A stretch of 64,000 nt of DNA from Curvibacter sp. GWA2_64_110 (GTDB lineage: Bacteria > Pseudomonadota > Gammaproteobacteria > Burkholderiales > Burkholderiaceae_C): assembly GCA_001797315.1 (NCBI GenBank), contig MGPC01000018.1, positions 62,001-126,000 of the forward strand, written 5' to 3'. The translations under genes were made by a program, and so were the position numbers. This document shows, in pieces, positions 928 through 14,359 of this stretch. Each line of letters opens with the position of its first letter. Position 1 is the stretch's first letter. The notes beneath the pieces were generated by a model that saw nothing but the letters and a program-made list of their open reading frames with translations, made no database searches and had not been told where the DNA came from.

Positions 928-1688
928 AACCTTTATTACTGGCAGCGTCGTCACTTGTCATGCGCGACTACCGGGTGCGCTTTCGCCGCACCCTATTGGG
1001 CATCGTCTGGTTCCTTGTGCCGCTCTTCACCTTGGTTGGCATGGCACTGTTGGTGGGCAAGGACCTGGGCCTGTACACCGAGGGGCAATCGAGCAGCTAT
1101 CTGGTCCAACTGCTGGCGGGGCTGATTCTCTGGCAACTGCTGGCCGACACCTGGCTTGAACCCATGCGGCTTGCCCGGCGCGCCAACATGCTTTTGCGCT
1201 CAGTGGTCTTTGACACCCGGATCCTGTTGGCTGCCGGCGCACTGTCCGCCCTGGTCGCCTTTGCACTCAAGCTTCCGGTCCTGCTAGCCGCGCTGCTCTG
1301 GTTCAACGTTCCGCTCACGCTGTCAAGCGCCTGGCTTCCTTTTGTTGTATGCGGCCTGGTTGCCGCCGGCATGGCCATGGCCTGCTTCACCCTGCCCCTC
1401 AGCCTGGCGCTGCTCGACGTGCGCTATGCCATGCCTTTTGTTCAGTACGCACTTCTGCTGGCAACGCCGATTTTCTACACGGCGCCCAGTGTAGGGCCGG
1501 TGGCATGGCTCAACCAGGGCAACCCCTTCAGCCACCTGATTCTCCCGCTCCGGGACACGCTCACAGGCGTCTCGCCTGACGCGGGCGCTCTCATGGCGCC
1601 CCTTGTGCTGACCTTGTGCCTGCTGGCACTGGGGCTACGCTATTTCCAGGCCAAGATCCGCCTGGCCATCGCCTATATCGGCCATTGA
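924..1688 (+). CDS. wzm: ABC-2 type polysaccharide export permease (Wzm-like)
   Basis: This 254-residue integral membrane protein has about six hydrophobic segments and the RDYRVRFRRTLLGIVWFLVPL start typical of Wzm/KpsM/RfbA-type permeases. The family forms the inner-membrane channel that exports undecaprenyl-linked O-antigen or capsule chains, working with a Wzt ATPase. The ATPase gene follows two bases downstream and the upstream gene overlaps by four bases, so this is one transcription unit. The length matches the family (250-270 residues). The gene symbol is given by family; the exported glycan is unknown. Confidence 0.85.
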   Translation: MKPLLLAASSLVMRDYRVRFRRTLLGIVWFLVPLFTLVGMALLVGKDLGLYTEGQSSSYLVQLLAGLILWQLLADTWLEPMRLARRANMLLRSVVFDTRILLAAGALSALVAFALKLPVLLAALLWFNVPLTLSSAWLPFVVCGLVAAGMAMACFTLPLSLALLDVRYAMPFVQYALLLATPIFYTAPSVGPVAWLNQGNPFSHLILPLRDTLTGVSPDAGALMAPLVLTLCLLALGLRYFQAKIRLAIAYIGH

Positions 1689-1690
1689 CC

Positions 1691-3070
1691 ATGACAGGCG
1701 AAACCAACATCGTTCTAGAGCTTGACCAGGCCAGCAGGCTGTACCCCCGCGACATCTCAGATACGCCATCTGCCATCCTGCGTGAAATGCTGTTGCCCGG
1801 CAGGCTGCTGAACACACCGGGGCCAGACTCCTTCTTCGCACTGCGCGGCGTCAGTCTTCGCTTGCGCAAAGGCCAGAAGCTGGGCGTCATCGGTGCCCAT
1901 CGCAGCGGAAAGACCAGCCTGGCCGGCATCGCCAGTGGTGTCCTCCAGCCCACGAGCGGCAACGTCTCGGCACAGGGAAGCAGGCTGCTGATCAGCCGCC
2001 CTACGGCTGGGTTCAAGCCGACCTTGACGTCGATTGAAAACCTCCGCCTGCGCGCCAGCCTTGCCGGCTTGCATGGCGAACTCCTGGACGCCGTATTGGA
2101 CAGAACACTGTCCCGCTGCGGCGTGGACTACCCGGAAGCACGGATCCCCATGGGGAACCTCTCCCCCTACGTCGTCAAGCAACTCGGCCTGACGCTGCTG
2201 CTGGAACTCCCGGCCGACATCTTGGTCGTCGATGGAATCAGCAGTGCAGGCATCGGCGACGCACGCTGGCTGACCCGGGGGCTGCTGCAGGAAAAGATAG
2301 ATGCCAGCACAGCCCTGATCATCAGCTCCGACTTCAGTTTCATACAGGAAGTGGCCGAAGAGGCCGTCCTGCTCCATCACGGCAGGCTATACGGCCCGTT
2401 CAGCGTTGAAAAGGCAATCGACCACTTCAACGAGTTGCCGCAAGAGGATGTCCTTTGCGGTCTTCCGGATAGCGCCCACGATCCCCAGACGCCACCTACC
2501 ATTGTTGGTCAACCATACAGCGACCTGTCTGCCGACCAGTCGCTGGATGACGATCCCGACCCTTACGACCACACAGATAGCGAAGCTGATGATGAAGCCT
2601 CTTCGTCTTTGGCGGGGAAAGGTAAGTCACGGAACAGGCCCTCATGGGAAGTTCTGGGAATTACGGTAGATGGGGAGGAATACAGACATTCGCAACGTAG
2701 TCTGATTCGGCGGCCCGGTGATAAATTGAGTGTGAGCGTAGAAATGATCTCTCTGCGCAATCAGAAATTTAGCGGCGGACGTTTCTCTTTGTTCGGGGGC
2801 AACAGTGGTTTGGAGGTTGGGGTCTTCTGCTATGAGCTGGAAGAGATGGAAATCCACGCCAATCAGAGGCACGTCCTTAGCTTCGACCTGACGATTCCAG
2901 ATTGGCACGAAGACTACTATGGACTAGCCTTCTGTCCAACGCATAGCAGCGCGTACCTCCTCCCTAAGCACAGGATGAAGATACTCATTTTCGGTGTCGG
3001 TGAAAAGAACGCTGTTCGTCGAACAAACGCTCTGCAAATAGGCAACAGCCGCTTCAATAGAAATAACTGA
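1691..3070 (+). CDS. wzt: Polysaccharide ABC exporter ATP-binding protein with C-terminal glycan-recognition domain (Wzt-like), degenerate motifs
   Basis: The protein has 459 residues from the ATG right after wzm. Residues 1-250 are an ABC ATPase domain, 255-315 a very acidic linker, and 318-459 a Wzt-type C-terminal beta domain. Walker A is intact (GAHRSGKTS, 68-76). The signature position reads LSPYV (157-161) instead of SSGM or LSGGQ. Walker B ends VVDG (179-182), with Gly where the catalytic Glu belongs. The H-loop reads ISSD (211-214), with Ser for His. In the family the N domain powers export and the C domain reads the modified non-reducing end of the glycan. The DNA becomes visibly A+T-richer from about 2570 onward, so the C domain may have a different origin from the ATPase domain. 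Confidence 0.85.
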   Translation: MTGETNIVLELDQASRLYPRDISDTPSAILREMLLPGRLLNTPGPDSFFALRGVSLRLRKGQKLGVIGAHRSGKTSLAGIASGVLQPTSGNVSAQGSRLLISRPTAGFKPTLTSIENLRLRASLAGLHGELLDAVLDRTLSRCGVDYPEARIPMGNLSPYVVKQLGLTLLLELPADILVVDGISSAGIGDARWLTRGLLQEKIDASTALIISSDFSFIQEVAEEAVLLHHGRLYGPFSVEKAIDHFNELPQEDVLCGLPDSAHDPQTPPTIVGQPYSDLSADQSLDDDPDPYDHTDSEADDEASSSLAGKGKSRNRPSWEVLGITVDGEEYRHSQRSLIRRPGDKLSVSVEMISLRNQKFSGGRFSLFGGNSGLEVGVFCYELEEMEIHANQRHVLSFDLTIPDWHEDYYGLAFCPTHSSAYLLPKHRMKILIFGVGEKNAVRRTNALQIGNSRFNRNN

Positions 3071-3072
3071 GC

Positions 3073-3945
3073 ATGTCAGCAAAGATAAACACGAGAAATA
3101 AAACACTTCGACCAAAGTGGTCCAAGAGCTTTGGACTCCCGAGACAGAAGCGGATCGAAGAGAAGCTATCGTTGCGAAGAAAAATCGCACTGCTTTTCCG
3201 ACATCGCAAGCTCTTCTGGACAGCTGGATGGCAAGCCCTCCTCTCGCGCCAGGACGCCGTGATCAAAGACGATGAGTACAAGGATCGTCTTCAATCGACA
3301 TTGGGTGAGTATTTGCATTGGTACTTCACCGACAAGTCATTTCTGCACAGCATCGACTGGATGGGGATTCCAACCCGCAAGTTGGTCACAGATGTCTGGG
3401 TTTATCAAGAAATCATTTTCGAAACCAAACCTGATCTGATCATCGAGATTGGAAGCCTTTGCGGAGGCAGCACTCTGTTCTTTGCTCAGATGCTGGAGCT
3501 AATTGGCAACGGGGAGGTTCTCTCCATCGACATTTCTCACGATTACTTCATGGCCAATCACCCAAAGATTCGAAAGATTACAGCCGACTGTTCGGACAGG
3601 GCCGTTGTTGAGCAAGTCAAAGATCTCTCGAAGGGAAAGCGGGTCATGGTGATCCACGACGGGGACCATACCGCGGAAGCGGTGGAGCGCGATCTGAAAC
3701 TGTATGCACCACTTGTGACACCCGGCATGTACCTCATCATTGAGGATGGTGTAGTTGATCTCCTCAACCCCAGGAGCAAGACTGGCGAGGCCTATTCGAG
3801 CGGCGGTCCACTGAAGGCCGCGAGAAATTTCCTCCGTGAGATGGGCAGCCAGTTCGAACTGGACATGAGACGAGAGCGTTTTATCTTGACGACAAACCCA
3901 AAGGGTTACCTAAGGCGAAAGCCTTCTGAGAACGTAAATGTCTAA
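3073..3945 (+). CDS. CmcI-family class I SAM-dependent methyltransferase
   Basis: The 290-residue protein carries EIGSLCGGS (125-133) as the SAM-binding motif I, then HDGDHT (195-200) and IIEDG (222-226). These match the cephalosporin-hydroxylase/rhamnosyl O-methyltransferase family (CmcI, PF04989), whose members O-methylate sugars or small molecules. The first 60 residues are basic. The gene starts two bases after wzt. Its DNA is clearly A+T-richer than that of its neighbours and uses codons such as AGA and ATA that are rare in the rest of the window. A sugar O-methyltransferase that modifies or caps the exported glycan is my inference. Confidence 0.75.
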   Translation: MSAKINTRNKTLRPKWSKSFGLPRQKRIEEKLSLRRKIALLFRHRKLFWTAGWQALLSRQDAVIKDDEYKDRLQSTLGEYLHWYFTDKSFLHSIDWMGIPTRKLVTDVWVYQEIIFETKPDLIIEIGSLCGGSTLFFAQMLELIGNGEVLSIDISHDYFMANHPKIRKITADCSDRAVVEQVKDLSKGKRVMVIHDGDHTAEAVERDLKLYAPLVTPGMYLIIEDGVVDLLNPRSKTGEAYSSGGPLKAARNFLREMGSQFELDMRRERFILTTNPKGYLRRKPSENVNV

Positions 3946-4002
3946 CCGGCATCTAAGCTGAGCAGAGAGAAGAAGAGACCAATCGTCCAAATAGGAAAAT
4001 CA

Positions 4003-4662
4003 ATGGCTTCTATCAACGTGATCGAATGGATTGAAAAATACGCCAAGCACATTGGCTCTGATGTTCTTGAAGTAGGAGCAAAGAGATACAAGGAACATGC
4101 GTATCTGGGCTTGCGCGAATTCCTCGCCGAGAAATTGCCTCGCAGCAGACTGATCGGGTGCGACATATCGGCAGGCGAAGGGGTTGATGTGGTACTGGAC
4201 ATCACGGCGCCCTTGCAAGTCGTCAAATCCACCCTACGGAACAAGACCTTCGATTCCGTGTTCTGCGTCAGCGTTCTGGAACATATTCCAGACGTGTTCA
4301 GCGCCTGCAAGAACATCAGTGCCCTCCTCAATCCCGGTGGCGCACTCTTTGTATCGGTGCCGTTTGTCTTCCGGTATCACGGCTATCCCGGCGACCTCTG
4401 GCGATTCACCCCCGAAGCCGTGACGTACCTGTTTCCGGATATCGATTTCCTCGACTACAAGTACTCCACGGTCACCACGCTGGAGCAGGACGACCGGATG
4501 TCTTTGAAGGACGAGAACCTGGAAAAGATGAACCGTTTCCTCTATCGCCCCAGATCACGAGAAGACAAGGTTGCGAGAAAGGAGGCCAAACAGGCCGGCG
4601 AAACGGTTGAGGCTTATTCGCTGGCCCCGGCCATGATCAACATGTTTGGATTCAAAAAATAG
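4003..4662 (+). CDS. Class I SAM-dependent methyltransferase (Methyltransf_11-like)
   Basis: The protein has 219 residues. VLEVGAKRY (21-29) stands for motif I, GCDIS (52-56) for the acidic loop, FDSVFCVSVLEHI (83-95) for motif IV and LNPGG (109-113) for the post-motif turn. This is a standard Rossmann methyltransferase layout, although motif I lacks the usual second and third glycines. The FRYHGYPGDLWRFTP segment is common in methyltransferases from polysaccharide clusters. The first 100 bases are A+T-rich like the preceding gene, and composition then returns to normal. Substrate unknown; modification of a cluster sugar is likely. Confidence 0.7.
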   Translation: MASINVIEWIEKYAKHIGSDVLEVGAKRYKEHAYLGLREFLAEKLPRSRLIGCDISAGEGVDVVLDITAPLQVVKSTLRNKTFDSVFCVSVLEHIPDVFSACKNISALLNPGGALFVSVPFVFRYHGYPGDLWRFTPEAVTYLFPDIDFLDYKYSTVTTLEQDDRMSLKDENLEKMNRFLYRPRSREDKVARKEAKQAGETVEAYSLAPAMINMFGFKK

Positions 4663-4704
4663 GCGCTGCGCAAACGGCAAGACCAAGTATCCGCACCGTC
4701 CTTC

Positions 4705-5427
4705 ATGCACGACAGACAAACCATGGAAAACTTCGACATCAGGGAAGTCAACGCCAACGATGAGTTGCGACTTGCGCTGAAACCAGAAAGATTCGTCCCC
4801 CGATCGTCGTCTTTCATGACGCTGCCCCACAAATACGATCGCGAAGACAGATCAGGACTCTGGCAATTCGAGACATTGAAGAAACTGGGGCTTGCGGCGG
4901 ACTCCCGATTGCTGGAGCTTGGCCCCGGTGGAGGACGGCTGGCGATGCACGTCATCCCTTACCTTCAACACGGCCACTATGCCGGACTCGATGTCTCGCG
5001 GCAGGGACTAGACTGGCTTTGGGATCTGTTGCCTGAGGTGGATCGGGCTCGCGAACCCAGTCTTTTCTGGGGCGGGGATTTCAATCTCGAAGGCCTGCTT
5101 CCCTGGAAGCCGGACATCATCTGGGCGCACTCGGTTTTCACCCACCTGTACTGGAACGAGATCGGCCAATGCCTTCACGAGATGCGAAAAGTTATCGCCC
5201 CCAAGGGCAATTTTTTCGCCACCTACTTCAACACCGTCGACAACATGTGGACTTCCCAGTCCTACGGGAAATCCGGCAAGAAACTGACATACGGTTTCAA
5301 GGACCCCTTCCACTACCGCTTTGATACCCTGCAGTCGCTTGCCCGGGAAACCGGCTGGCATGCCGTGCACGAGCAGATGGAAAAGAACCACAAAGGCCAG
5401 ACGTTGATTCGCTTCTCACCGCAGTAA
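4705..5427 (+). CDS. Class I SAM-dependent methyltransferase
   Basis: The protein has up to 240 residues. LLELGPGGG (69-77) is a clear glycine-rich SAM motif I, followed by GLDVS (94-98) and an IIWAHSVFTHL segment at the motif IV position. The family assignment (Methyltransf_25/23-like) is firm; the substrate is not known. An alternative ATG at 4723 would remove six residues, and neither start has a strong Shine-Dalgarno site. This is the third methyltransferase-like gene in a row between the exporter and the glycosyltransferase, so the glycan is probably methylated at several positions or at its chain end. Confidence 0.7.
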   Translation: MHDRQTMENFDIREVNANDELRLALKPERFVPRSSSFMTLPHKYDREDRSGLWQFETLKKLGLAADSRLLELGPGGGRLAMHVIPYLQHGHYAGLDVSRQGLDWLWDLLPEVDRAREPSLFWGGDFNLEGLLPWKPDIIWAHSVFTHLYWNEIGQCLHEMRKVIAPKGNFFATYFNTVDNMWTSQSYGKSGKKLTYGFKDPFHYRFDTLQSLARETGWHAVHEQMEKNHKGQTLIRFSPQ

Positions 5428-5456
5428 TCTGGCCAACGAGATGCCCCCACTGATTC

Positions 5457-7028
5457 ATGTGTAGCGTGACCCTCCGGATGCAGAATATTTTTGAACGCTT
5501 CCTCAGTTCAGACACATGGCGAGAAAGCCCGTGGCTGATCGTCGGGAAGGGGCCCAGCTTTTCAGCCATCCGGAATTACGACTGCTCCCGTTTCAGGGTC
5601 TTGACACTGAATGACAGTATTCGCGAGTTCGAGCATGCCGCGATCGCCCACTTCATCGATTTCAATGCCTTCAAACGATGCGCCCATGACCTGCATCGCG
5701 CAGACGCCGTCGTGCTTCCCTGGTTCCCCCATTTTGACAACAAGCCAGGCAACCTCGGGCTTGCCGACCTGCTCCTGCGTGAGCCAATGCTCCAGAAGCT
5801 GGCGCAGGAGAACCGCCTGTGCTGGTATGACCTGTCGACTTCCGCCCATCGTCAAGGCAACTTTCCCACCGTGTCAGCACTCTACTTCAGCGCTGAAGCC
5901 GCCTTGGATCTGCTGGCCACAGCGGGTGTCCGGAAAATCCGTTCACTGGGCATTGACGGAGGGAATGCCTACAGTACCGAGTTTGCTGATCTGATTGACG
6001 TCTCGCTGCTGACTAACCGTCGAAAGAGCTTCGACTGCCAGTTCGAATCGTTCGCCAAGATACTCACACGAACCGGCGTGGACTTCGCGCCGTTGGCCAT
6101 GGAAACACCGATCCGCATCCATGTGGCGTCCAGCGCCAGCGAGGCGCTTCCGGTCAAGGTGCTTGAGTATTCCATCAGGCAGCACGCAAGCACCACCGTC
6201 ACTGTCACCCCGTTGTGCGACGTCGGCATTTCAATTCCGAAGCCGCGCGCCCCCGAGAGCCAGCCACGCACCCCCTTTTCCTTCCAGCGCTTCCTGATTC
6301 CGCAGGTCTGCGGGTATGCCGGCCGTGCGATTTACCTCGACTCCGACATGCTGGTGTTCAAGGACATCACCGATCTCTGGCGTCGGCCCCTCGGGGACGC
6401 CGATGTGCTGGCTGCCTATTCGACATCTGCCAGCGGCCGGAAACCGCAATACAGCGTGATGCTCATGGACTGCAGCCAACTCAGGTGGAACATCCGGGAG
6501 ATCGTGGACCAGCTGGACGCGGGGACGCTCAGCTATGAGCAACTGATGTATGAGTTCTCGCTTGCCAGAGCCCGTGCGGACATCGAGCCGGACTGGAATT
6601 CACTGGAAGCCTACAAGGAAGGACAAACCGCCCTCTTGCACTACACGGACATGAACATGCAGCCTTGGGTATCGCACCTGAATCCGCTGGGCTATCTGTG
6701 GGTGCGGACACTCAGGCAGGCCGTGCGGGACGACGTGATACCCAGAGCCTTCGTTGAAGACGAAGTGCAGCGCGGCCATGTGCGCCCGTCCCTGCTCTAC
6801 CAGCTCGACCATGAGATCGACGACGCCATTCTGCTGCCCAAGGCGGCTCTCGCTGCGGATGCAGGTTTCACTCCGCCCTACCGCACCCTGGGGGCGCATC
6901 AAGCGTCACCATGGCGAAACCGTCTTCAGTGGTTGCGCGCCAGCCTGCGTACCAAGTACCAGACGACCCCGCTCTACCGGCTCGAACGACGAGTTCTCAA
7001 CCGGTTGAAAATCCAGTTTGACCGCTGA
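5457..7028 (+). CDS. Two-domain glycosyltransferase: DUF115/GT42-like N domain plus GT8-like C domain
   Basis: The protein has 523 residues. The first half has WLIVGKGPSF (27-36), LTLNDS (49-54) and HFIDFNAF, a pattern seen in DUF115/sialyltransferase-like Rossmann domains. The second half begins near PIRIHVASS (218-226) and has AIYLDSDMLVFKDI (291-304) with the DxD metal-binding motif of GT8 enzymes. Its HYTDMNMQPW stretch is also typical of bacterial GT8 proteins. Residues 411-450 match the tail of the truncated gene at the left edge. A bifunctional enzyme adding two sugars is possible; alternatively the N domain only binds a donor or acceptor. An alternative ATG lies at 5478. Confidence 0.65.
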   Translation: MCSVTLRMQNIFERFLSSDTWRESPWLIVGKGPSFSAIRNYDCSRFRVLTLNDSIREFEHAAIAHFIDFNAFKRCAHDLHRADAVVLPWFPHFDNKPGNLGLADLLLREPMLQKLAQENRLCWYDLSTSAHRQGNFPTVSALYFSAEAALDLLATAGVRKIRSLGIDGGNAYSTEFADLIDVSLLTNRRKSFDCQFESFAKILTRTGVDFAPLAMETPIRIHVASSASEALPVKVLEYSIRQHASTTVTVTPLCDVGISIPKPRAPESQPRTPFSFQRFLIPQVCGYAGRAIYLDSDMLVFKDITDLWRRPLGDADVLAAYSTSASGRKPQYSVMLMDCSQLRWNIREIVDQLDAGTLSYEQLMYEFSLARARADIEPDWNSLEAYKEGQTALLHYTDMNMQPWVSHLNPLGYLWVRTLRQAVRDDVIPRAFVEDEVQRGHVRPSLLYQLDHEIDDAILLPKAALAADAGFTPPYRTLGAHQASPWRNRLQWLRASLRTKYQTTPLYRLERRVLNRLKIQFDR

Positions 7029-7061
7029 CCCCTTACTCCGTCCCTTTCCAACCCCAGTGCC

Positions 7062-7298
7062 ATGAGTGAAACCATTTACACCCAGCTCAACCAGATCTTC
7101 CGCGATGTTCTGGACAACGACGACATCAACCTCACCGCGAAGACCACTGCCGCCGACGTACCGGGCTGGGACAGCCTGGCCCATATCAATCTGATCCTGG
7201 CCGTCGAACGGCATTTCAAGGTCCGCTTTGCCACGACGGAGATCGGCGGGCTGTCTGACGTTGGCGAACTGGTCGCCCTGATCGAAGCCCAGATCTAG
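7062..7298 (+). CDS. Acyl carrier protein
   Basis: The protein has 78 residues and is acidic and helical. GWDSLAHINL contains the DSL motif with Ser38, the expected 4'-phosphopantetheine attachment site. It is not the fatty-acid AcpP, because it lies inside a polysaccharide cluster directly before an FkbH-like gene. Standalone carrier proteins in this arrangement hold an acyl or glyceryl thioester for a dedicated pathway. The holo form would be made by a phosphopantetheinyl transferase such as the AcpS encoded at 60422-60814. Confidence 0.85.
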   Translation: MSETIYTQLNQIFRDVLDNDDINLTAKTTAADVPGWDSLAHINLILAVERHFKVRFATTEIGGLSDVGELVALIEAQI

Positions 7299-7317
7299 CC
7301 CAGATTTAGTCCCCAGC

Positions 7318-9201
7318 ATGCAACACCTCGCTGCCCTGCCCTGGTTGCCCGACGCACCAGACGATTTCCGCGCCCGGTGCAAAAGCATGGCGAACGGCGA
7401 GGATGCACGCTTCCTGGCCACGCACGCACTGGATCTGACACAGCTGGGGCAGTTGGCCCGTGCCATGCAGCGCTTGGACACGTTGGTACCACTCACACCA
7501 TTCAAACTGGCTGTGCTGAGCAGCACCACCGTCGATTTCCTGCTCCCGCCCCTCATTGCAAGCGGTGCACGCCATGGCTTTGCCATGGAAGTATTCGGCC
7601 CGCCCTATGGTCAGGTGATGCAGCAGGCACTGGACCCGACCTCCGAAGTGAACCGGTTCGAGGCCGATGCGGTGCTGCTGTACCTCGATCACCGCTTTTT
7701 CCCCCGCCCCCAGGAGTTGGGCAGCGCGACAGCGATGCAGGCGGCCGTTGAGCAGGCCATACATCAGACCAACAGTCTTCGCAGTGCATTGCGGCGGACT
7801 GGTGCCTCCGTCATCGTGACCACGCTGGCGCCGCCTTCCTGCCCGCTGTTTGGCCATCTGGACGCCAGGGTTGCCGGAACGGAACGCGCCTTCGCGCAGG
7901 CCTACAACGCCGCCTTGATTCAATCGCTGGAGCACACGCCTGATGTCCTGCTGGATGTGGCGTCCCTGGCCGAGGCGGTAGGTCTCGCGGCCTGGCATGA
8001 TGCCCCGCAGTGGCTGCTGGCCAAGATACCGTTCAGCATGGATTGCGTCCCGCTGTTCGCCGATCATGTCGCCCGCGTCGTCGCCAGCCTGCGGGGCAAG
8101 GCACGCAAGTGTCTGGTGCTGGATCTGGACAATACCGTCTGGGGTGGCGTCGTCGGAGACGACGGCATTGACGGCATCGAAATCGGCAACGGATCAGCAA
8201 CGGGCGAGGCCCATCTCGAATTGCAACGCTCGGCTCTGGCCTTGAGGCAGCGCGGCATCGTGCTGGCCGTCAGCTCCAAAAACAATGACGATACTGCGCG
8301 CAAACCTTTTCGCGAGCATCCGGACATGCTGCTGCGGGAAGAACACATCGCCGTCTTTCAGGCCAACTGGCAGGACAAGGCCAGCAATCTGGTGGCAATA
8401 GCGAAAACGCTGAACATCGGCCTCGATGCCCTCGTGTTTCTGGATGACAACCCGGCCGAGCGGGCCTTGGTACGCCAGACCCTGCCCCAGGTCGCCGTGC
8501 CCGAACTCCCCAAGGATCCTGCCTTTTTCCCGCACATGCTGCTGCACGCCGGCTATTTCGAGGCCTTGGCCTTTTCGGAAGAAGACCGTCTGCGGGCTGG
8601 CCAATACCAGGCCAATGGCATTCGCGCCGCCCTGGAACAGGCCTCAGCGGATCTGCCGACCTATCTGCGGTCTCTCCAGATGGTCATCCATTTCGCACCA
8701 TTCAATGCCATGGGACGGGCGCGTATTGCCCAACTCATCAACAAGTCGAACCAGTTCAACCTGACGACTCGCCGCTATTCGGAAGCCGACGTAGAGGCCA
8801 TGCAAAATGACCCGACGCTCTTCACATTGCAGGTGCGACTGACAGACAAGTTCGGCGACAACGGCATGATCAGTGTCATCATCTGCCGCCCCCTGGACGG
8901 CAATTGGCAGATTGACACATGGCTGATGAGCTGCCGCGTTCTGAAACGAAGCGTCGAACTGGCCGTTCTCAACGAGATCATGGCAGCCGCTCAGGCAAAC
9001 GGCATCCAGAAGGTTCTCGGCATCTACAGACCAACCGACAAGAACGAACTCGTCCGTGATCATTACAGGGATCTGGGCTTCACCTGCATCCGCACCGCTG
9101 ATGACGGCAGCTCTGAATGGGTCCTGGATGTTGGCAGCTATCGGCCGCATGATCTGCCCATGGCGGTTGAACGCGCCGCGTCTTGCGGAATGGCCACTTG
9201 A
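7318..9201 (+). CDS. FkbH-like HAD-IIIC family protein
   Basis: The protein has 627 residues in three parts: an N-terminal SGNH-like region (about 60-250), a HAD-IIIC domain with CLVLDLDNTVWGG (265-277), SSKNN (319-323) and VFLDDNPAER, and a C-terminal GNAT-like region. FkbH proteins typically convert 1,3-bisphosphoglycerate into a glyceryl-carrier-protein thioester. The preceding carrier-protein gene fits this. The position that I recall as Cys in the usual CSKN motif is Ser319 here, so the intermediate or substrate might differ. The start is 19 bases after the carrier-protein stop, and the gene overlaps the next one (TGATG). I infer that it loads the carrier protein. Confidence 0.8.
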   Translation: MQHLAALPWLPDAPDDFRARCKSMANGEDARFLATHALDLTQLGQLARAMQRLDTLVPLTPFKLAVLSSTTVDFLLPPLIASGARHGFAMEVFGPPYGQVMQQALDPTSEVNRFEADAVLLYLDHRFFPRPQELGSATAMQAAVEQAIHQTNSLRSALRRTGASVIVTTLAPPSCPLFGHLDARVAGTERAFAQAYNAALIQSLEHTPDVLLDVASLAEAVGLAAWHDAPQWLLAKIPFSMDCVPLFADHVARVVASLRGKARKCLVLDLDNTVWGGVVGDDGIDGIEIGNGSATGEAHLELQRSALALRQRGIVLAVSSKNNDDTARKPFREHPDMLLREEHIAVFQANWQDKASNLVAIAKTLNIGLDALVFLDDNPAERALVRQTLPQVAVPELPKDPAFFPHMLLHAGYFEALAFSEEDRLRAGQYQANGIRAALEQASADLPTYLRSLQMVIHFAPFNAMGRARIAQLINKSNQFNLTTRRYSEADVEAMQNDPTLFTLQVRLTDKFGDNGMISVIICRPLDGNWQIDTWLMSCRVLKRSVELAVLNEIMAAAQANGIQKVLGIYRPTDKNELVRDHYRDLGFTCIRTADDGSSEWVLDVGSYRPHDLPMAVERAASCGMAT

Positions 9202-10643
9202 TGCCGAACGCCCTTGCCATCCGCCGCTTCACGCCTGCCGATCAACTGGCATTCGCCCGTCTGTCGGGCGACACCAATCCGATTCACCTCGACCCCATCG
9301 CGGCCCGCCGTACGGTTGCAGGACAGTGCATCGTGCACGGCATGCACAGCCTTCTCTGGGCGTTGAACGTACTGGCCCGTGCATCGGTGACAGCAAGCCG
9401 GTTGAACGTACGCTTTCTGAAACCTGTCTTCCTGGATGAGGAAGTTTCTTGCATCTGGGATGACCAGGCCGGCAAGCTGGTCCTGACCGTCGATGGCACC
9501 AAGGTCATCGACATCACCCTGGGGACAGGCCCCGTCTCTGTCCGTGATCTGATTCCTCCTGCACCTGCGCCTGCACGAAACCAGCCGGCTCAACGCACGT
9601 TCGATGATTGCGCCCGGCTGCTCCCCCTGCCTTTTGAATTGCATGGCAACGCGGACATCGCGACAGAGCTGTTCCCTGACGCCGTTCAAGCTTATGGCCC
9701 AACGGCCATCCACGAAATTGCAGCGCTGTCCTATGTGGTCGGCATGGAGTTGCCGGGGATGAATTCCCTGTTTGCCGGCCTGCATCTTGAAATCAGGCCC
9801 GCTCCGGACCAGGCAACCTCCTTTGCGACCCTCGACAGCGACGAGCGCTTCAATCGCTTGCGGATCGGGGTGACCGGTCGCGCCTTGCAAGGAGAGATTG
9901 AAGCCTTCTACCGTCCGCCCCCCAGGCGCATGCCTCCATTTGCAGACCTGGCCCCGCGGGTTCGAGTGGGCGAATTCCAGGGTGTCTGCGCACTGATCAT
10001 CGGCGGTTCGCGCGGTTTGGGCGAAGTCACCGCCAAGCTGATCGCGGCGGGCGGGGGCACGGTCATCATGACCTACAGTACAGGCGCCGAAGAAGCACGG
10101 CAGGTCGCCGAAGATATCCAGCGGTCCGGCGGACAATGCAAGGTGTTGCCATTGACGGTCAGCGAGGCAACATCCCTCCCACCCGGCCTGCCCGGCATCA
10201 ACCAGCTGTATTACTTCGCCACGCCGAAAATCTTCGGCAAACGTACGTCCCGGTTCGACGAGACGCTCTATCAGAAGTTTCTGGCGGTCTATGTCAGCGG
10301 CTTCGAATCCATCTGCAGGCAGCTCATCGCTTCCGGAAACCGATTTTCGGCACTCTATCCATCGAGCGTTGCCATCGAGCAGCCGCTGCCTGAGCTGGCT
10401 GAATATGCCAAGGCCAAGGCCGAAGGCGAGGCCCTCTGCATGCGTCTGAATGCCGCCCGGTCGCAACTTGAAATACTGATGCACCGCCTGCCACGCACGG
10501 CGACCGACCAGACACAGGCTTTATTGCAGACACCGGCTTCCGACCCGGTTGAAGTGATGCTGCCGTTGATCCGCAGAATGGCAGACCTCGGCCATACCAC
10601 TGGCACCACGCTTCCCAAGAAACTCGGCCCCCATGCTGTTTAA
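9201..10643 (+). CDS. Double-hotdog (MaoC-like) and short-chain dehydrogenase fusion
   Basis: The protein has 480 residues from the ATG overlapping the fkbH-like stop. Residues 1-115 are a MaoC-type hotdog domain with SGDTNPIHLD (22-31), the hydratase-type motif with Asp and His. Residues 130-240 look like a second hotdog domain. Residues 258-480 are an SDR domain with LIIGGSRGLG (265-274), SS at 388-389 and YAKAK (Y402, K406) of the YxxxK motif. This suggests one polypeptide able to hydrate or dehydrate and to reduce a carrier-bound acyl group. The natural substrate cannot be read from sequence. It sits between carrier-loading and acyl-transfer genes with overlaps on both sides. Confidence 0.75.
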   Translation: MPNALAIRRFTPADQLAFARLSGDTNPIHLDPIAARRTVAGQCIVHGMHSLLWALNVLARASVTASRLNVRFLKPVFLDEEVSCIWDDQAGKLVLTVDGTKVIDITLGTGPVSVRDLIPPAPAPARNQPAQRTFDDCARLLPLPFELHGNADIATELFPDAVQAYGPTAIHEIAALSYVVGMELPGMNSLFAGLHLEIRPAPDQATSFATLDSDERFNRLRIGVTGRALQGEIEAFYRPPPRRMPPFADLAPRVRVGEFQGVCALIIGGSRGLGEVTAKLIAAGGGTVIMTYSTGAEEARQVAEDIQRSGGQCKVLPLTVSEATSLPPGLPGINQLYYFATPKIFGKRTSRFDETLYQKFLAVYVSGFESICRQLIASGNRFSALYPSSVAIEQPLPELAEYAKAKAEGEALCMRLNAARSQLEILMHRLPRTATDQTQALLQTPASDPVEVMLPLIRRMADLGHTTGTTLPKKLGPHAV

Positions 10644-12063
10644 CGACTACTATTTCATTTTCTGGTTCCTGCCCATCACCCTGCTGCTGTACCACGCAGC
10701 GCTTGGATGGGGACGCATCACACTGGCCAAGTGGGTTCTACTGGCCTCATCGCTGCTCTTCTACAGTTTGTGGAAACTTGCATTTCTCCCGCAATTCCTG
10801 ATTTCCATCTTCTGCAACTACCTCATCGGCGCACGCCTGCAGGCGCGGCCTGTCGCCAGTTCGGCCCTGCGTACCCATGGCGAACTGGCGCTCGTCTGGC
10901 TGGGCATGGCTGGCAACCTGGCCTTCCTTTTCTATTACAAGTACCTGACCTTCTTTGCCAGCCAGTCGAACCTGTTCCTGGGCACCGATTTCGTACTGAC
11001 CAAGATCGTGATGCCGCTGGGCATCAGTTTCTTCACCTTCATGCAGATGTCGTATCTGTTCGAGTGCTACCAGGGCCGGGTGAAAGAGCGCACCAGCCTG
11101 CTGGATTACACGCAGTTCATCACCTTCTTCCCTCACCTGATTGCCGGCCCCATCATCCTGCACAAGGAATTGATACCGCAGTTCAATGACCGGGGCCGCA
11201 TGCGCACCATGTCGAGCAATATCGCTCTGGGTCTGTTCCTGTTCGCCCTCGGCCTGTTCAAGAAAGTGGTGATCGCCGACAGCTTGGCCGAGAATGCCGC
11301 GCTGCCTTTCGACCAGCGCGCTTATGACGGCGTGCGGGTCTGGATCGGCGTGCTGAGTTACACGCTGCAGCTGTACTTCGATTTCTCCGGCTACATGGAC
11401 ATGGCCATGGGCATCGCCCGCATGTTCAATTTCGATCTGCCCATCAACTTCGACAGCCCGTTCCGCGCGACGAACATCAGCGCCTTCTGGCGTCGCTGGC
11501 ACATCACCATGACCCGCTTCTTCATGAGCTACATCTTCATGCCGCTGGCCATGCGCGCGGCGCGCCGCCATGCCGATGCACCGCCCGGCAAACGGCGCAA
11601 GTTCATCGAGGCCACGGCGGTGCCGATTCTGCTGACCTTCCTGCTGGCCGGCATCTGGCATGGTGCGGGCTGGACTTTCGTCGTGTTTGGCCTATGGCAC
11701 GGCTGTGGTCTTGTCATCCACCGCCGGTGGGAAATGTCTGGCCGCAAAATGTCAACCCCGGCGGCCTGGCTGTTGACTTTCCTCTTTGTGGTGATCGGAT
11801 TCGTTTTTTTCCGTTCCCCCAACATGGAGGTGGCCGGCAAGGTGCTGGGCGGCATGTTCACCATATCGGGCGACCCCGGCGAATGGCGACGGGTGCTCTT
11901 GATCTGCGTGGCACTGGCCTTGGCATTGCTGCCGAAAAACAGCCAGGCTTTGGCAAAAGCCTTCCAGCCCACATGGCGCACCTTCGGCTGGACCATGGCC
12001 GCCATCGTGACGTCGCTCGCATTGATCAACCGGCAAGCCGCCTTCCTGTACTGGCAGTTCTGA
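10633..12063 (+). CDS. MBOAT family membrane-bound O-acyltransferase (AlgI-like)
   Basis: The 476-residue multi-pass membrane protein carries FWRRWHITMTRF and AGIWHGAGWTFVVFGLWHG, the two MBOAT signatures, with the invariant His in WHG. AlgI-type MBOATs pass an acyl group from a cytoplasmic donor across the inner membrane for O-acylation of a surface polymer. Here the likely donor is the cluster's carrier protein. The start overlaps the preceding gene by 11 bases, and the following SGNH-like gene begins two bases after the stop. This is the same pairing as AlgI with AlgJ/AlgX. Confidence 0.88.
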   Translation: MLFNDYYFIFWFLPITLLLYHAALGWGRITLAKWVLLASSLLFYSLWKLAFLPQFLISIFCNYLIGARLQARPVASSALRTHGELALVWLGMAGNLAFLFYYKYLTFFASQSNLFLGTDFVLTKIVMPLGISFFTFMQMSYLFECYQGRVKERTSLLDYTQFITFFPHLIAGPIILHKELIPQFNDRGRMRTMSSNIALGLFLFALGLFKKVVIADSLAENAALPFDQRAYDGVRVWIGVLSYTLQLYFDFSGYMDMAMGIARMFNFDLPINFDSPFRATNISAFWRRWHITMTRFFMSYIFMPLAMRAARRHADAPPGKRRKFIEATAVPILLTFLLAGIWHGAGWTFVVFGLWHGCGLVIHRRWEMSGRKMSTPAAWLLTFLFVVIGFVFFRSPNMEVAGKVLGGMFTISGDPGEWRRVLLICVALALALLPKNSQALAKAFQPTWRTFGWTMAAIVTSLALINRQAAFLYWQF

Positions 12064-12064
12064 C

Positions 12065-13471
12065 ATGACGGACACACGCAAATCGGCCATTTGGGCCTGG
12101 GGAGTGGCAGGCGCCACAGTTGCCTTCCTGCTGCTGAACTTCTTCGTCTGGTTTTACAACCTGAACCTGCTCTTCATGCCGTATCCCAACTGCGGCGATC
12201 TGGCCCGCATCGGCATGGCCCCGGAGATCGGTCAGTGCCGCGAAGAAAAACGCACCTTGCCCAGGCTTCTGGTGAATCCGTCACCACAACAGCCGTCGAC
12301 CTTTCCCATCCTGAGTTTTGGTGACTCGATATCACGTGGCCGGGGCGGTGGTGAAAACAACTACTGGCAGGACTTCGTTGCCACCCGCGCCGGCCTCGAC
12401 ATCACGTGGGTCTCGGAGATAGATGACAACAACTACCCGCAGGACATCATGCGCCTGCGCAACAGCGGCTACCTGAAGAAGCTCGGCGTCAAGTATCTGG
12501 TGGTACAAGCCGCCGAGCGTGCTGTGGTCACGCGGTTTACACGGAACATCAATTGGGATGAAACCATGCCACTGCCTGAACTGGAAGCACGGCTCCATCG
12601 CCTGTCCGGAATGCTGTTTACCGACGAACGCCACATCCAGGCATGGGAAGGGCAGAAACTGGGACGCTTTCACGGCAATGCAGAACTGGAAGCACGTGCC
12701 ATGCTTACCCAGTTCATATTCGCCCATGCCGGACAGCTGATTCTGGGTATCGACACTGTTTATGAACATGTGGCAAAACTCGCTCCCGAGACGCTATGCC
12801 TGAAGCGCTGGCAAAACGCGCCCGGGGTCGGTGATCCAGTTTTCCTGTGTGGCACCCGGCCTGTCCTCAACACTTTCAAGTCGATCTTCAGCGGGTCGAG
12901 GCAGGCAAATGAATTGCATCCGGAAGCTCAGATCAGTTTTCTGGCTGATGGCTTCCGAACTCCCATTCCTGCTGCAATCAATAACAACTACAAATGGCTG
13001 AAGCGGCAACTGAGCAACCAATTCGGAACAGACAAGTATTCGGAGGCCGCCCAGCGTTGGGAACTGAACCGGCCCATGTTCAGTGGTCCATATGAAACAA
13101 CCCTGATGTTTCACCTGGGTGACTACAAGATCAATCGCAAAAACAGAGACGACAAGCCGATCCGGAAGATGCATGACAACCTGAACCGGTTGGCGGACCT
13201 CCTGGCACAGGATGGCATCAGGCTCTATTTCATGCCGACGCCGAACAAGCTGACGGTTTACCAGGATTATCTGGTCGAGCCGATTGAAACGAAGAGCACG
13301 TTCTTCCCACGCCTGCGTGAGCTGGGCGGCAAGCGCTACGTCTTCATCGACACGGAAAGAGTGATCCGCGACATGGTGGCGGGAGGTGAGAAAGACATGT
13401 ACTTCATCGATGACACCCACTGGTCAAACAAGGCGTTGCCGGCCATTGCCCAGTTGTTTGAATTCAACTAG
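12065..13471 (+). CDS. Membrane-anchored SGNH hydrolase-like acyltransferase partner (AlgJ/AlgX-like)
   Basis: The protein has 468 residues. A single hydrophobic segment (about 9-31) near the N-terminus anchors or exports it. SFGDSIS (84-90) gives the SGNH Ser block, and DDTHWSNKA (449-457) gives the Asp-x-x-His block; these match the AlgJ/AlgX and DHHW-type layout. Such proteins act in the periplasm, taking an acyl group delivered by the MBOAT partner and placing it on a polysaccharide hydroxyl. It is the last gene of the cluster. The middle (about 190-330) has no motif that I recognise. Confidence 0.78.
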   Translation: MTDTRKSAIWAWGVAGATVAFLLLNFFVWFYNLNLLFMPYPNCGDLARIGMAPEIGQCREEKRTLPRLLVNPSPQQPSTFPILSFGDSISRGRGGGENNYWQDFVATRAGLDITWVSEIDDNNYPQDIMRLRNSGYLKKLGVKYLVVQAAERAVVTRFTRNINWDETMPLPELEARLHRLSGMLFTDERHIQAWEGQKLGRFHGNAELEARAMLTQFIFAHAGQLILGIDTVYEHVAKLAPETLCLKRWQNAPGVGDPVFLCGTRPVLNTFKSIFSGSRQANELHPEAQISFLADGFRTPIPAAINNNYKWLKRQLSNQFGTDKYSEAAQRWELNRPMFSGPYETTLMFHLGDYKINRKNRDDKPIRKMHDNLNRLADLLAQDGIRLYFMPTPNKLTVYQDYLVEPIETKSTFFPRLRELGGKRYVFIDTERVIRDMVAGGEKDMYFIDDTHWSNKALPAIAQLFEFN

Positions 13472-13552
13472 CCGCGGGCGACCGGGTGGATCACATGCGC
13501 GGCTGACACCCGAATGCTTCACGCCGCAGCAAATTCGCGGCATATTTGCGTC

Positions 13553-14359
13553 ATGCGACAAGCTCCCCCCTCCGTCGTTGCAACGAGCGAACTGCTGCCC
13601 CAGGTTGTGCGCATCGCCCATGAAGCGGGCGCCGCCATCATGGACATCTACAGCGCCATGCCGGCAACGGGTCATCAGATCATTCGCAAAGAAGACGGCA
13701 GCCCGCTGACACAGGCTGACCTGGCCGCGCATCAAGTGATCGCCCGGGCGCTAGCCCGTCTGACGCCAGATATTCCAGTCGTGTCGGAAGAAGACAGCGC
13801 CTCGCAGGCGCACCGTCAGCCCCGAGGACGCTTCTGGCTGGTGGACCCATTGGACGGCACCAAGGAGTTTCTGGCGCGCAATGGCGAGTTCACGGTCAAC
13901 ATCGCCTTGGTGCAAGACGGTGTGGCCGTGCTCGGCGTGGTGGTGGCACCGGCGCTGGGGCTGGCCTACTGGGGCGCGGCCGATCTGGGCGCCTTTCGCC
14001 AAAGCCGTCGAGGGACCGAAGCCATCCGCGTCGCGTCCGGACAGGAGCGATCCGGCTGCCCGCTGCGGGTGCTGGCCAGCAAGAGCCACATGAACGCCGA
14101 GACGCAGGATTTTCTGCGCCGGCTGGGGCCGCACGAACTGATACAGAGCGGCAGTTCGCTGAAGTTCTGCCGCCTTGCCGAAGGCAGCGCCGACCTCTAC
14201 CCGCGCCTCGGTTCGACCTGCGAATGGGATACCGCCGCCGGACAGGCGGTTCTGGAAGCGGCCGGGGGCCGGGTCTCACAGCTCGACGGTGCACCCCTGC
14301 GTTACGGCAAGCCGGACGTTGTCAATCCGCATTTCATTGCCACCACCGTGCCGCAGTGA
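13553..14359 (+). CDS. cysQ: 3'(2'),5'-bisphosphate nucleotidase CysQ
   Basis: The protein has 268 residues from the ATG at 13553; an upstream ATG at 13514 would add a stretch unlike the family. EED (79-81) and WLVDPLDGTKEF (95-106) are the metal-binding motifs of the inositol-monophosphatase superfamily, and the KEF variant is typical of CysQ. Near the C-terminus, CEWDTAAGQAVLEAAGG supplies the last metal-ligand motif. CysQ removes the 3' phosphate from PAP formed in sulfate assimilation. It follows the polysaccharide cluster on the same strand with an 81-base gap and is probably independent of it. Confidence 0.92.
   Translation: MRQAPPSVVATSELLPQVVRIAHEAGAAIMDIYSAMPATGHQIIRKEDGSPLTQADLAAHQVIARALARLTPDIPVVSEEDSASQAHRQPRGRFWLVDPLDGTKEFLARNGEFTVNIALVQDGVAVLGVVVAPALGLAYWGAADLGAFRQSRRGTEAIRVASGQERSGCPLRVLASKSHMNAETQDFLRRLGPHELIQSGSSLKFCRLAEGSADLYPRLGSTCEWDTAAGQAVLEAAGGRVSQLDGAPLRYGKPDVVNPHFIATTVPQ

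Follow-up and report, generated by a model that had tools for sequence, protein, structure and literature searches.

A candidate Dlt-like acylation cassette with an FkbH-type donor branch at a proteobacterial surface-glycan locus

Which acyl group might decorate the surface glycan encoded in a 64,000-nucleotide stretch of the Curvibacter sp. GWA2_64_110 genome (contig MGPC01000018.1, positions 62,001 to 126,000; hereafter the window), and by what route would it get there? The question is raised by five plus-strand genes encoding an acyl carrier protein (ACP; 7062-7298, 78 amino acids), a predicted FkbH-type HAD-IIIC loading enzyme (7318-9201, 627 amino acids), a single chain that joins a MaoC hotdog domain to a short-chain dehydrogenase/reductase (SDR; 9201-10643), a membrane-bound O-acyltransferase (MBOAT; 10633-12063, 476 amino acids) and an SGNH protein (12065-13471, 468 amino acids). 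The tight packing reported in a preliminary description of this DNA is confirmed: a 19-base gap separates the ACP and FkbH genes, the FkbH stop and the MaoC/SDR start share base 9201 (taking the ATG there rather than the mechanical TTG start at 9183), the MaoC/SDR and MBOAT genes overlap by 11 bases, and a 1-base gap precedes the SGNH gene. All five proteins match a Pfam or NCBIfam model above its curated cut-off. In the genome assembly, which spans 3.4 Mb and is 95.6% complete, no MBOAT or FkbH other than those of the cassette was detected, and MaoC/SDR likewise gave a single match. Our tentative answer, to which we give slightly less than an even chance, is that these genes form a Dlt-like system for the carrier-fed acylation of an ABC-exported surface glycan, with FkbH replacing DltA and with a lactyl group derived from glyceryl.

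The proposal of the preliminary description, a system dedicated to acyl decoration, is well supported at the sequence level. Azoarcus sp. L1K30 (locus L018) and the Rhodocyclaceae metagenome-assembled genome HKST-UBA167 (locus L019) have ACP, FkbH, MaoC/SDR, MBOAT and SGNH genes in exactly the same order, and this identity of order indicates that the set is more than a chance assembly. Identities to the window proteins in L018 and L019, respectively, are 87% and 79% for ACP, 76% and 74% for FkbH, 57% and 53% for MaoC/SDR, 83% and 79% for MBOAT, and 62% and 59% for SGNH. A looser third case, L139 from the same phylum, has ACP-FkbH-MaoC/SDR-MBOAT and, next in line, a protein that shows SGNH-like motifs but has no Pfam match. 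The co-occurrence of all five genes, proposed earlier as a check, gave a divided answer: besides the window, the exact set is present in only two of 80 MaoC/SDR loci, but its FkbH-ACP-MaoC/SDR core recurs widely.

The genomic surroundings support the view that the cassette is one functional, carrier-based unit at a surface-glycan locus. Upstream of it, on the same strand, the window encodes a Wzm-like glycan ABC exporter permease (924-1688; named from context and similarity, with no family match from its own run), a Wzt-like ATPase (1616-3070; sub-cut-off matches to teichoic-acid and galactan exporter ATPases), a CmcI/rhamnosyl O-methyltransferase-like protein (3073-3945; RMNT_CmcI, 163.6 bits) and a GT8-domain protein (5457-7028; Pfam Glyco_transf_8, 32.5 bits), whose gene ends 33 bases before the ACP gene. 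Homologues of these glycan genes lie a few kb from the cassette, on the opposite strand, in both L018 and L019. The Wzm homologues are 76% and 72% identical to the window protein, the Wzt homologues 36% and 44%, and the CmcI-like methyltransferases 57% and 54%; proteins in both loci match the C-terminal half of the GT8-domain protein at about 31% identity. A homologue of the first open reading frame of the window is also found near both cassettes. Thus, related glycan exporter genes are linked to the five-gene set in all three loci that have it.

On the transfer side, the MBOAT protein (Pfam MBOAT, 71.4 bits; cut-off 27) has two WHG motifs and ends in FLYWQF, which gives it the fused C-terminal FXYXXF and the WHG histidine of the PatA/AlgI type. 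At E<=1e-3, comparison with the PDB gave no relatives other than the DltB-type structures 6bug and 8jem (E about 3e-29). In a first set of MBOAT sequences, in which L014 and L070 represent one gene and L072 is a fragment, the shuttle tyrosine and the final phenylalanine are present in all 27 rows and the strict FXYXXF in 23; in a second set, from around FkbH relatives, nine of 12 have FXYXXF. The SGNH protein begins with a hydrophobic stretch and has GDS at 86-88 and, within a C-terminal DDTHW, DDTH at 449-452; both motifs are identical in L018 and L019. In AlgX and AlgJ the DxH motif precedes GDS. The AlgJ-like label attached to this protein earlier therefore survives only in part: the ALGX domain is matched (33.6 bits; cut-off 26.5), but over model positions 17-117 of 268 only, and the order of GDS and DxxH is the reverse of that familiar from AlgX/AlgJ. 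We consequently set the AlgJ reading aside. SGNH-like neighbours with variant motifs, recognized by motif match only, adjoin several other MBOATs.

How, then, does the cassette relate to known MBOAT/SGNH systems? The relevant passages of PMC12148441 (2025) present the acyl-tyrosine mechanism as common to MBOAT/SGNH pathways; they describe DltB as carrier-fed and the other pathways as having no similar carrier, with PatA and AlgI using acyl-CoA and the fused FXYXXF being of PatA type. The cassette resembles PatA/PatB and AlgI/AlgJ/AlgX in combining an SGNH protein with an MBOAT that has the C-terminal FXYXXF, but, unlike the acyl-CoA pathways of those passages, its operon encodes an ACP and processing enzymes. 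With Dlt (DltA, DltB, DltC, DltD, DltX) it shares a carrier protein, an MBOAT, an SGNH partner and the acyl-tyrosine shuttle motif; the conserved ACP encoded in the cassette is the presumed donor. Yet FkbH and MaoC/SDR stand where Dlt has the adenylating DltA (none of the five proteins has an AMP-binding match in Pfam or NCBIfam), the shuttle motif is fused to the MBOAT rather than carried by a separate DltX microprotein, the presumed target is a proteobacterial, ABC-exported glycan rather than a teichoic acid, and the MBOAT scores 174.2 bits with the LTA_dltB model TIGR04091, below its equivalog cut-off of 375. The absence of DltA and of a separate DltX, together with the sub-cut-off DltB score, places the cassette outside the Dlt family. 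By joining a presumed carrier supply to a shuttle motif borne on the MBOAT itself, it would mix features of Dlt and PatA/AlgI, and we class it as a carrier-fed variant of MBOAT/SGNH systems that is Dlt-like but has a new donor branch. AlgI/AlgJ had been offered as the parallel; carrier-fed Dlt is the closer functional one.

The donor branch starts with the ACP (PP-binding, 23.8 bits; cut-off 20.8), which has a GWDSL phosphopantetheine site, and with FkbH (TIGR01686, 314 bits, cut-off 146.65; FkbH_N, 49.5 bits). The DxDNT HAD motif and the SCRV cysteine of FkbH are invariant in 11 of 11 aligned sequences, and these features together with the adjoining upstream ACP gene are those of an FkbH loading enzyme. 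Passages of PMC7489565 give glyceryl loading from 1,3-bisphosphoglycerate as the proposed FkbH step, with glyceryl-ACP as the precedent product, and the earlier suggestion that a glyceryl unit feeds the system appears probable. A differing formulation, '1,3-bpg + ACP -> D-lactate-ACP + 2 Pi', is given for polyketide loading modules in a passage of PMC7901079.

The product of the third donor gene matches MaoC (58.8 bits; cut-off 27) and adh_short (33.4 bits; cut-off 26.6) on one chain. The hydratase Asp-His pair, D24 and H29, is kept in all 82 alignment rows that have letters there, and the SDR residues S388, Y402 and K406 in 86, 84 and 86 of 86 rows; the Ser-Tyr-Lys set is accompanied by a glycine-rich nucleotide motif, as in SDR ketoreductases. 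Five of the 87 alignment rows (L012-L016) duplicate genes of L052, L069, L070, L059 and L072. The best solved relatives of the hotdog half are HtdX and an R-specific enoyl-CoA hydratase; the fold comparison by VIA-align covers the SDR half. The protein is rare among close relatives of the window's genome: at E<=1e-20 it was found in one of 229 genomes of the class, the window's own, and at E<=1e-10 in six of 299 genomes of the family, again including the window's own. A profile scan of contigs confirmed 94 relatives, of which the best 80 were kept as loci; by their record titles these come from many phyla, and many are contig ends.

Around these loci, where gene matches were counted at E<=1e-3 with weak ones included, MaoC/SDR keeps company with FkbH. 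Forty-six loci are flanked by 5 kb or more on each side; of these, FkbH is present in 40 (within 3 kb in 35), an ACP match in 38 and an MBOAT match in 20; FkbH is present in 58 of all 80 loci. For comparison, of 398 genomes of the phylum only 46 have an FkbH relative anywhere at E<=1e-60, a threshold different from that of the locus counts. All six MaoC/SDR homologues gathered by MaoC/SDR searches alone have FkbH and ACP adjoining, and all seven alignment seeds, although collected by such searches only, adjoin FkbH. The commonest partnered arrangement within 4 kb is a co-directional FkbH-ACP-MaoC/SDR (10 loci), and in five loci (the window, L018, L019, L132 and L139) MaoC/SDR separates FkbH from MBOAT. 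FkbH and MaoC/SDR distances are correlated (Mantel r 0.573, reached in none of 5000 permutations; 48 of 54 qualifying loci after removal of near-duplicates), a value uncorrected for species kinship. Seen from the other side, 20 stretches around FkbH relatives, picked mainly from the top of 63 listed non-window FkbH matches, contain an ACP match in 18 cases, an MBOAT in 12 and MaoC/SDR (>250 bits) in five. The MaoC/SDR protein is thus an FkbH partner.

From gene content, order, recurrence, locus linkage and conserved catalytic residues, which are observations, we infer every reaction of the following route. Going by its precedent, FkbH would use 1,3-bisphosphoglycerate to charge the dedicated ACP with D-glyceryl. 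The MaoC half could then remove the alpha proton and expel the beta hydroxyl across C2-C3 of glyceryl-ACP, the resulting 2-hydroxyacrylyl enol would tautomerise to pyruvyl-ACP, and the SDR half would reduce its 2-keto group to give lactyl-ACP; the chain would accordingly be a glyceryl-ACP dehydratase and pyruvyl-ACP reductase in one. By analogy with Dlt and PatAB, the MBOAT would take the acyl group over from ACP and hold it, on the periplasmic side, on the tyrosine of the FXYXXF at its C-terminus, from where the SGNH serine would accept it and esterify the glycan made and exported by the neighbouring genes. The conversion of glyceryl to pyruvyl and lactyl is chemical reasoning from the enzyme families and the boldest and least certain part of the proposal. 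Since both catalytic sites of MaoC/SDR are kept, lactyl is nevertheless more likely than glyceryl to be the acyl group placed.

Several observations weigh against this reading. No FkbH was detected in six of the 46 well-flanked MaoC/SDR loci, and in 19 of the 80 loci, many at contig ends, MaoC/SDR has no other cassette gene within 4 kb; because of such FkbH-less and solitary loci, the protein may have other substrates. Conversely, six stretches (L128, L129, L130, L142, L009 and L011) have ACP-FkbH-MBOAT sets and no MaoC/SDR, so that an MBOAT can apparently use the unprocessed FkbH product. Of the 12 MBOATs in the second set, two (L143, L144) have no shuttle motif and another ends in FIYMGY, a structure prediction for the SGNH protein from three sequences reached a predicted local distance difference test score of only 35.5 and was not used, and the D-lactate-ACP reaction in the passage of PMC7901079 cites a paper titled on glycerate starter units, which makes it weak support for lactyl. 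As a separate observation, four of the well-flanked MaoC/SDR loci (L057, L068, L076 and L034) show no FkbH, ACP or MBOAT match and have mixed surroundings, possibly reflecting a second role of the family.

The six sets without MaoC/SDR also speak for a simpler scheme, in which FkbH, ACP, MBOAT and SGNH place D-glyceryl itself and MaoC/SDR acts elsewhere, for example on a glycan precursor. Glyceryl esters do occur on polysaccharides such as gellan. We nonetheless regard this scheme as rather unlikely, given that MaoC/SDR neighbours FkbH across many phyla, diverges in step with it, retains both catalytic sites and, in five loci including the window, is encoded between FkbH and MBOAT. Less probable still is a division of labour in which MBOAT and SGNH acetylate from acetyl-CoA, like AlgI/PatA, while ACP-FkbH-MaoC/SDR serves a separate, cytoplasmic N-linked substituent. 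The PatA-type fused motif, as classed in the passages of PMC12148441, fits such a division, as do six loci (L037, L043, L052, L059, L069 and L070) that pair the trio with a protein resembling the aminoglycoside acetyltransferase AAC(3) and have no MBOAT within 4 kb. The five-gene set, however, has no N-acyltransferase, its MBOAT and MaoC/SDR genes overlap, and ACP, FkbH and MBOAT stay together even where MaoC/SDR is missing.

The MaoC/SDR chain could also make a 3-hydroxyacyl thioester, such as 3-hydroxybutyryl, from central metabolism for the MBOAT to place. An SDR fold with a hydratase-2 motif is typical of 3-hydroxyacyl chemistry, the best solved relatives of the hotdog half point the same way, one stretch with FkbH, ACP and MBOAT (L142) contains a thiolase, though no MaoC/SDR, and acetoacetyl thioesters could come from enzymes elsewhere in the genome. 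Yet phmmer seeds (E<=1e-6) found no ketosynthase (seeds chosen from a search of 20 whole genomes) and no 3-hydroxyacyl-CoA dehydrogenase (HADH) in 91 + 20 stretches, and a thiolase seed matched only this one gene (L142:13748-14950), near ACP-FkbH-MBOAT; moreover, the precedent product of the partner FkbH is glyceryl-ACP, not acetoacetyl. We consider this source improbable, on a par with or marginally behind the acetyl-CoA scheme. That the cassette belongs to a secondary-metabolite or methoxymalonyl-type pathway merely neighbouring glycan genes is very improbable. Passages of PMC7489565 do assign FkbH with a stand-alone ACP to proposed methoxymalonyl and tetronate pathways, and the same pair is what the cassette shares with polyketide loading. 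The cassette kind differs in having MaoC/SDR and glycan acyltransferases, the scanned stretches lack ketosynthase and HADH, and glycan exporter genes accompany every five-gene locus. Acyl-CoA dehydrogenase matches are confined to three loci of Paraburkholderia, where their distance to MaoC/SDR is about 4 kb or more; some acyl-CoA dehydrogenase and HADH seed genes were kept on both strands, which makes antisense matches possible. Positions 1-24000 of the window gave no match at E<=1e-6 to HADH or acyl-CoA dehydrogenase, the enzymes (FkbK and FkbI, respectively) encoded beside FkbH in the methoxymalonyl-ACP pathway. With no ketosynthase or HADH and the one thiolase located apart from MaoC/SDR, there is therefore no local sign of C3 extension or of methoxymalonyl or hydroxymalonyl conversion.

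The acyltransferase beside the core varies, being an MBOAT, an AAC(3)-like protein or WcbI. This variation leads to a broader proposal, which we hold more tentatively than the Dlt-like reading of the cassette: FkbH, ACP and MaoC/SDR may constitute a general donor module that makes lactyl-ACP from 1,3-bisphosphoglycerate and serves MBOAT/SGNH pairs (for extracellular O-esters), AAC(3)-like proteins and WcbI. Joined to MBOAT/SGNH, it would be a Gram-negative Dlt-like pathway, contrary to the view that MBOAT/SGNH systems other than Dlt use acyl-CoA only. Searches confined to one open-access collection returned nothing that links FkbH, MBOAT, acyl carrier protein and polysaccharide, or FkbH, glyceryl and O-antigen, and nothing on bryostatin with FkbH and lactate; by title, there was nothing on lactyl-ACP or FkbH for polysaccharide or lipopolysaccharide. 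The passages of the sphingan literature considered contain neither MBOAT nor words in glycer-. If the proposed route is correct, the carrier-fed mode of MBOAT/SGNH action, which is well characterized for D-alanylation in Gram-positive bacteria, would extend to proteobacterial surface glycans, FkbH would gain a role beyond polyketide assembly, and the passage from glyceryl through pyruvyl to lactyl on ACP would couple glycan decoration directly to glycolysis.

The AAC(3)-model matches, seen in eight of the 46 well-flanked loci (one weak: L075, 27 bits), deserve a separate comment. A WcbI label for most members proved wrong, as the proteins of L012 (13637-14542), L013 (5753-6670) and L043 (8991-9992) belong to PF02522 (Antibiotic_NAT); L014:12916-13830, L015:7947-8855, L037 and L084 are AAC(3)-like by similarity. 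These cassettes, from Aquabacterium, Comamonadaceae and others, have the same donor trio as the window and lie near polysaccharide genes where examined, but in place of MBOAT/SGNH their acceptor enzyme is an AAC(3)-like protein, which probably acts as an N-acyltransferase in the cytoplasm. They possibly direct N-lactylation of an amino sugar from the same donor. Only the protein from a Niveispirillum plasmid is WcbI (PF18588, and annotated so); its locus (L007:6945-11425) reads FkbH-ACP-WcbI-MaoC/SDR, and the ACP encoded there may supply WcbI, which would then act as an acyltransferase.

Genes of the VOC family (PF13669) are found near ACP-FkbH in L009 (11909-12337), L008 (10922-11389) and L011 (4002-4469), stretches with no MaoC/SDR match, and are accompanied by an MBOAT in L009 and L011. 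The L009 protein scores 58.3 bits with the methylmalonyl-CoA epimerase model, below its cut-off of 114.95, and proteins of this kind could epimerise glyceryl-ACP. The L011 locus, on pSymB of S. meliloti (4002-9881; VOC-MBOAT-unknown-ACP-FkbH), offers a genetically tractable host for carrier-fed MBOAT acylation. A link to S. meliloti SMb20651 was considered and dropped: according to passages of PMC7232532, its ACP gene shares a transcript with the gene for an acyl-CoA ligase, whereas the L011 ACP gene adjoins FkbH.

The window locus was probably acquired, since, among 26 genomes of the genus, only that of the window yielded the SGNH protein, and the guanine-cytosine fraction shifts from 0.53-0.62 at positions 2001-14000 to 0.617-0.674 beyond 14000. 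A gene of the inositol-monophosphatase family (PF00459; 13514-14359), just 3' of the cassette, probably marks the edge of the acquired locus. Further afield, Prochlorococcus and SAR86 records (L079, L028) contain MaoC/SDR together with an FkbH relative.

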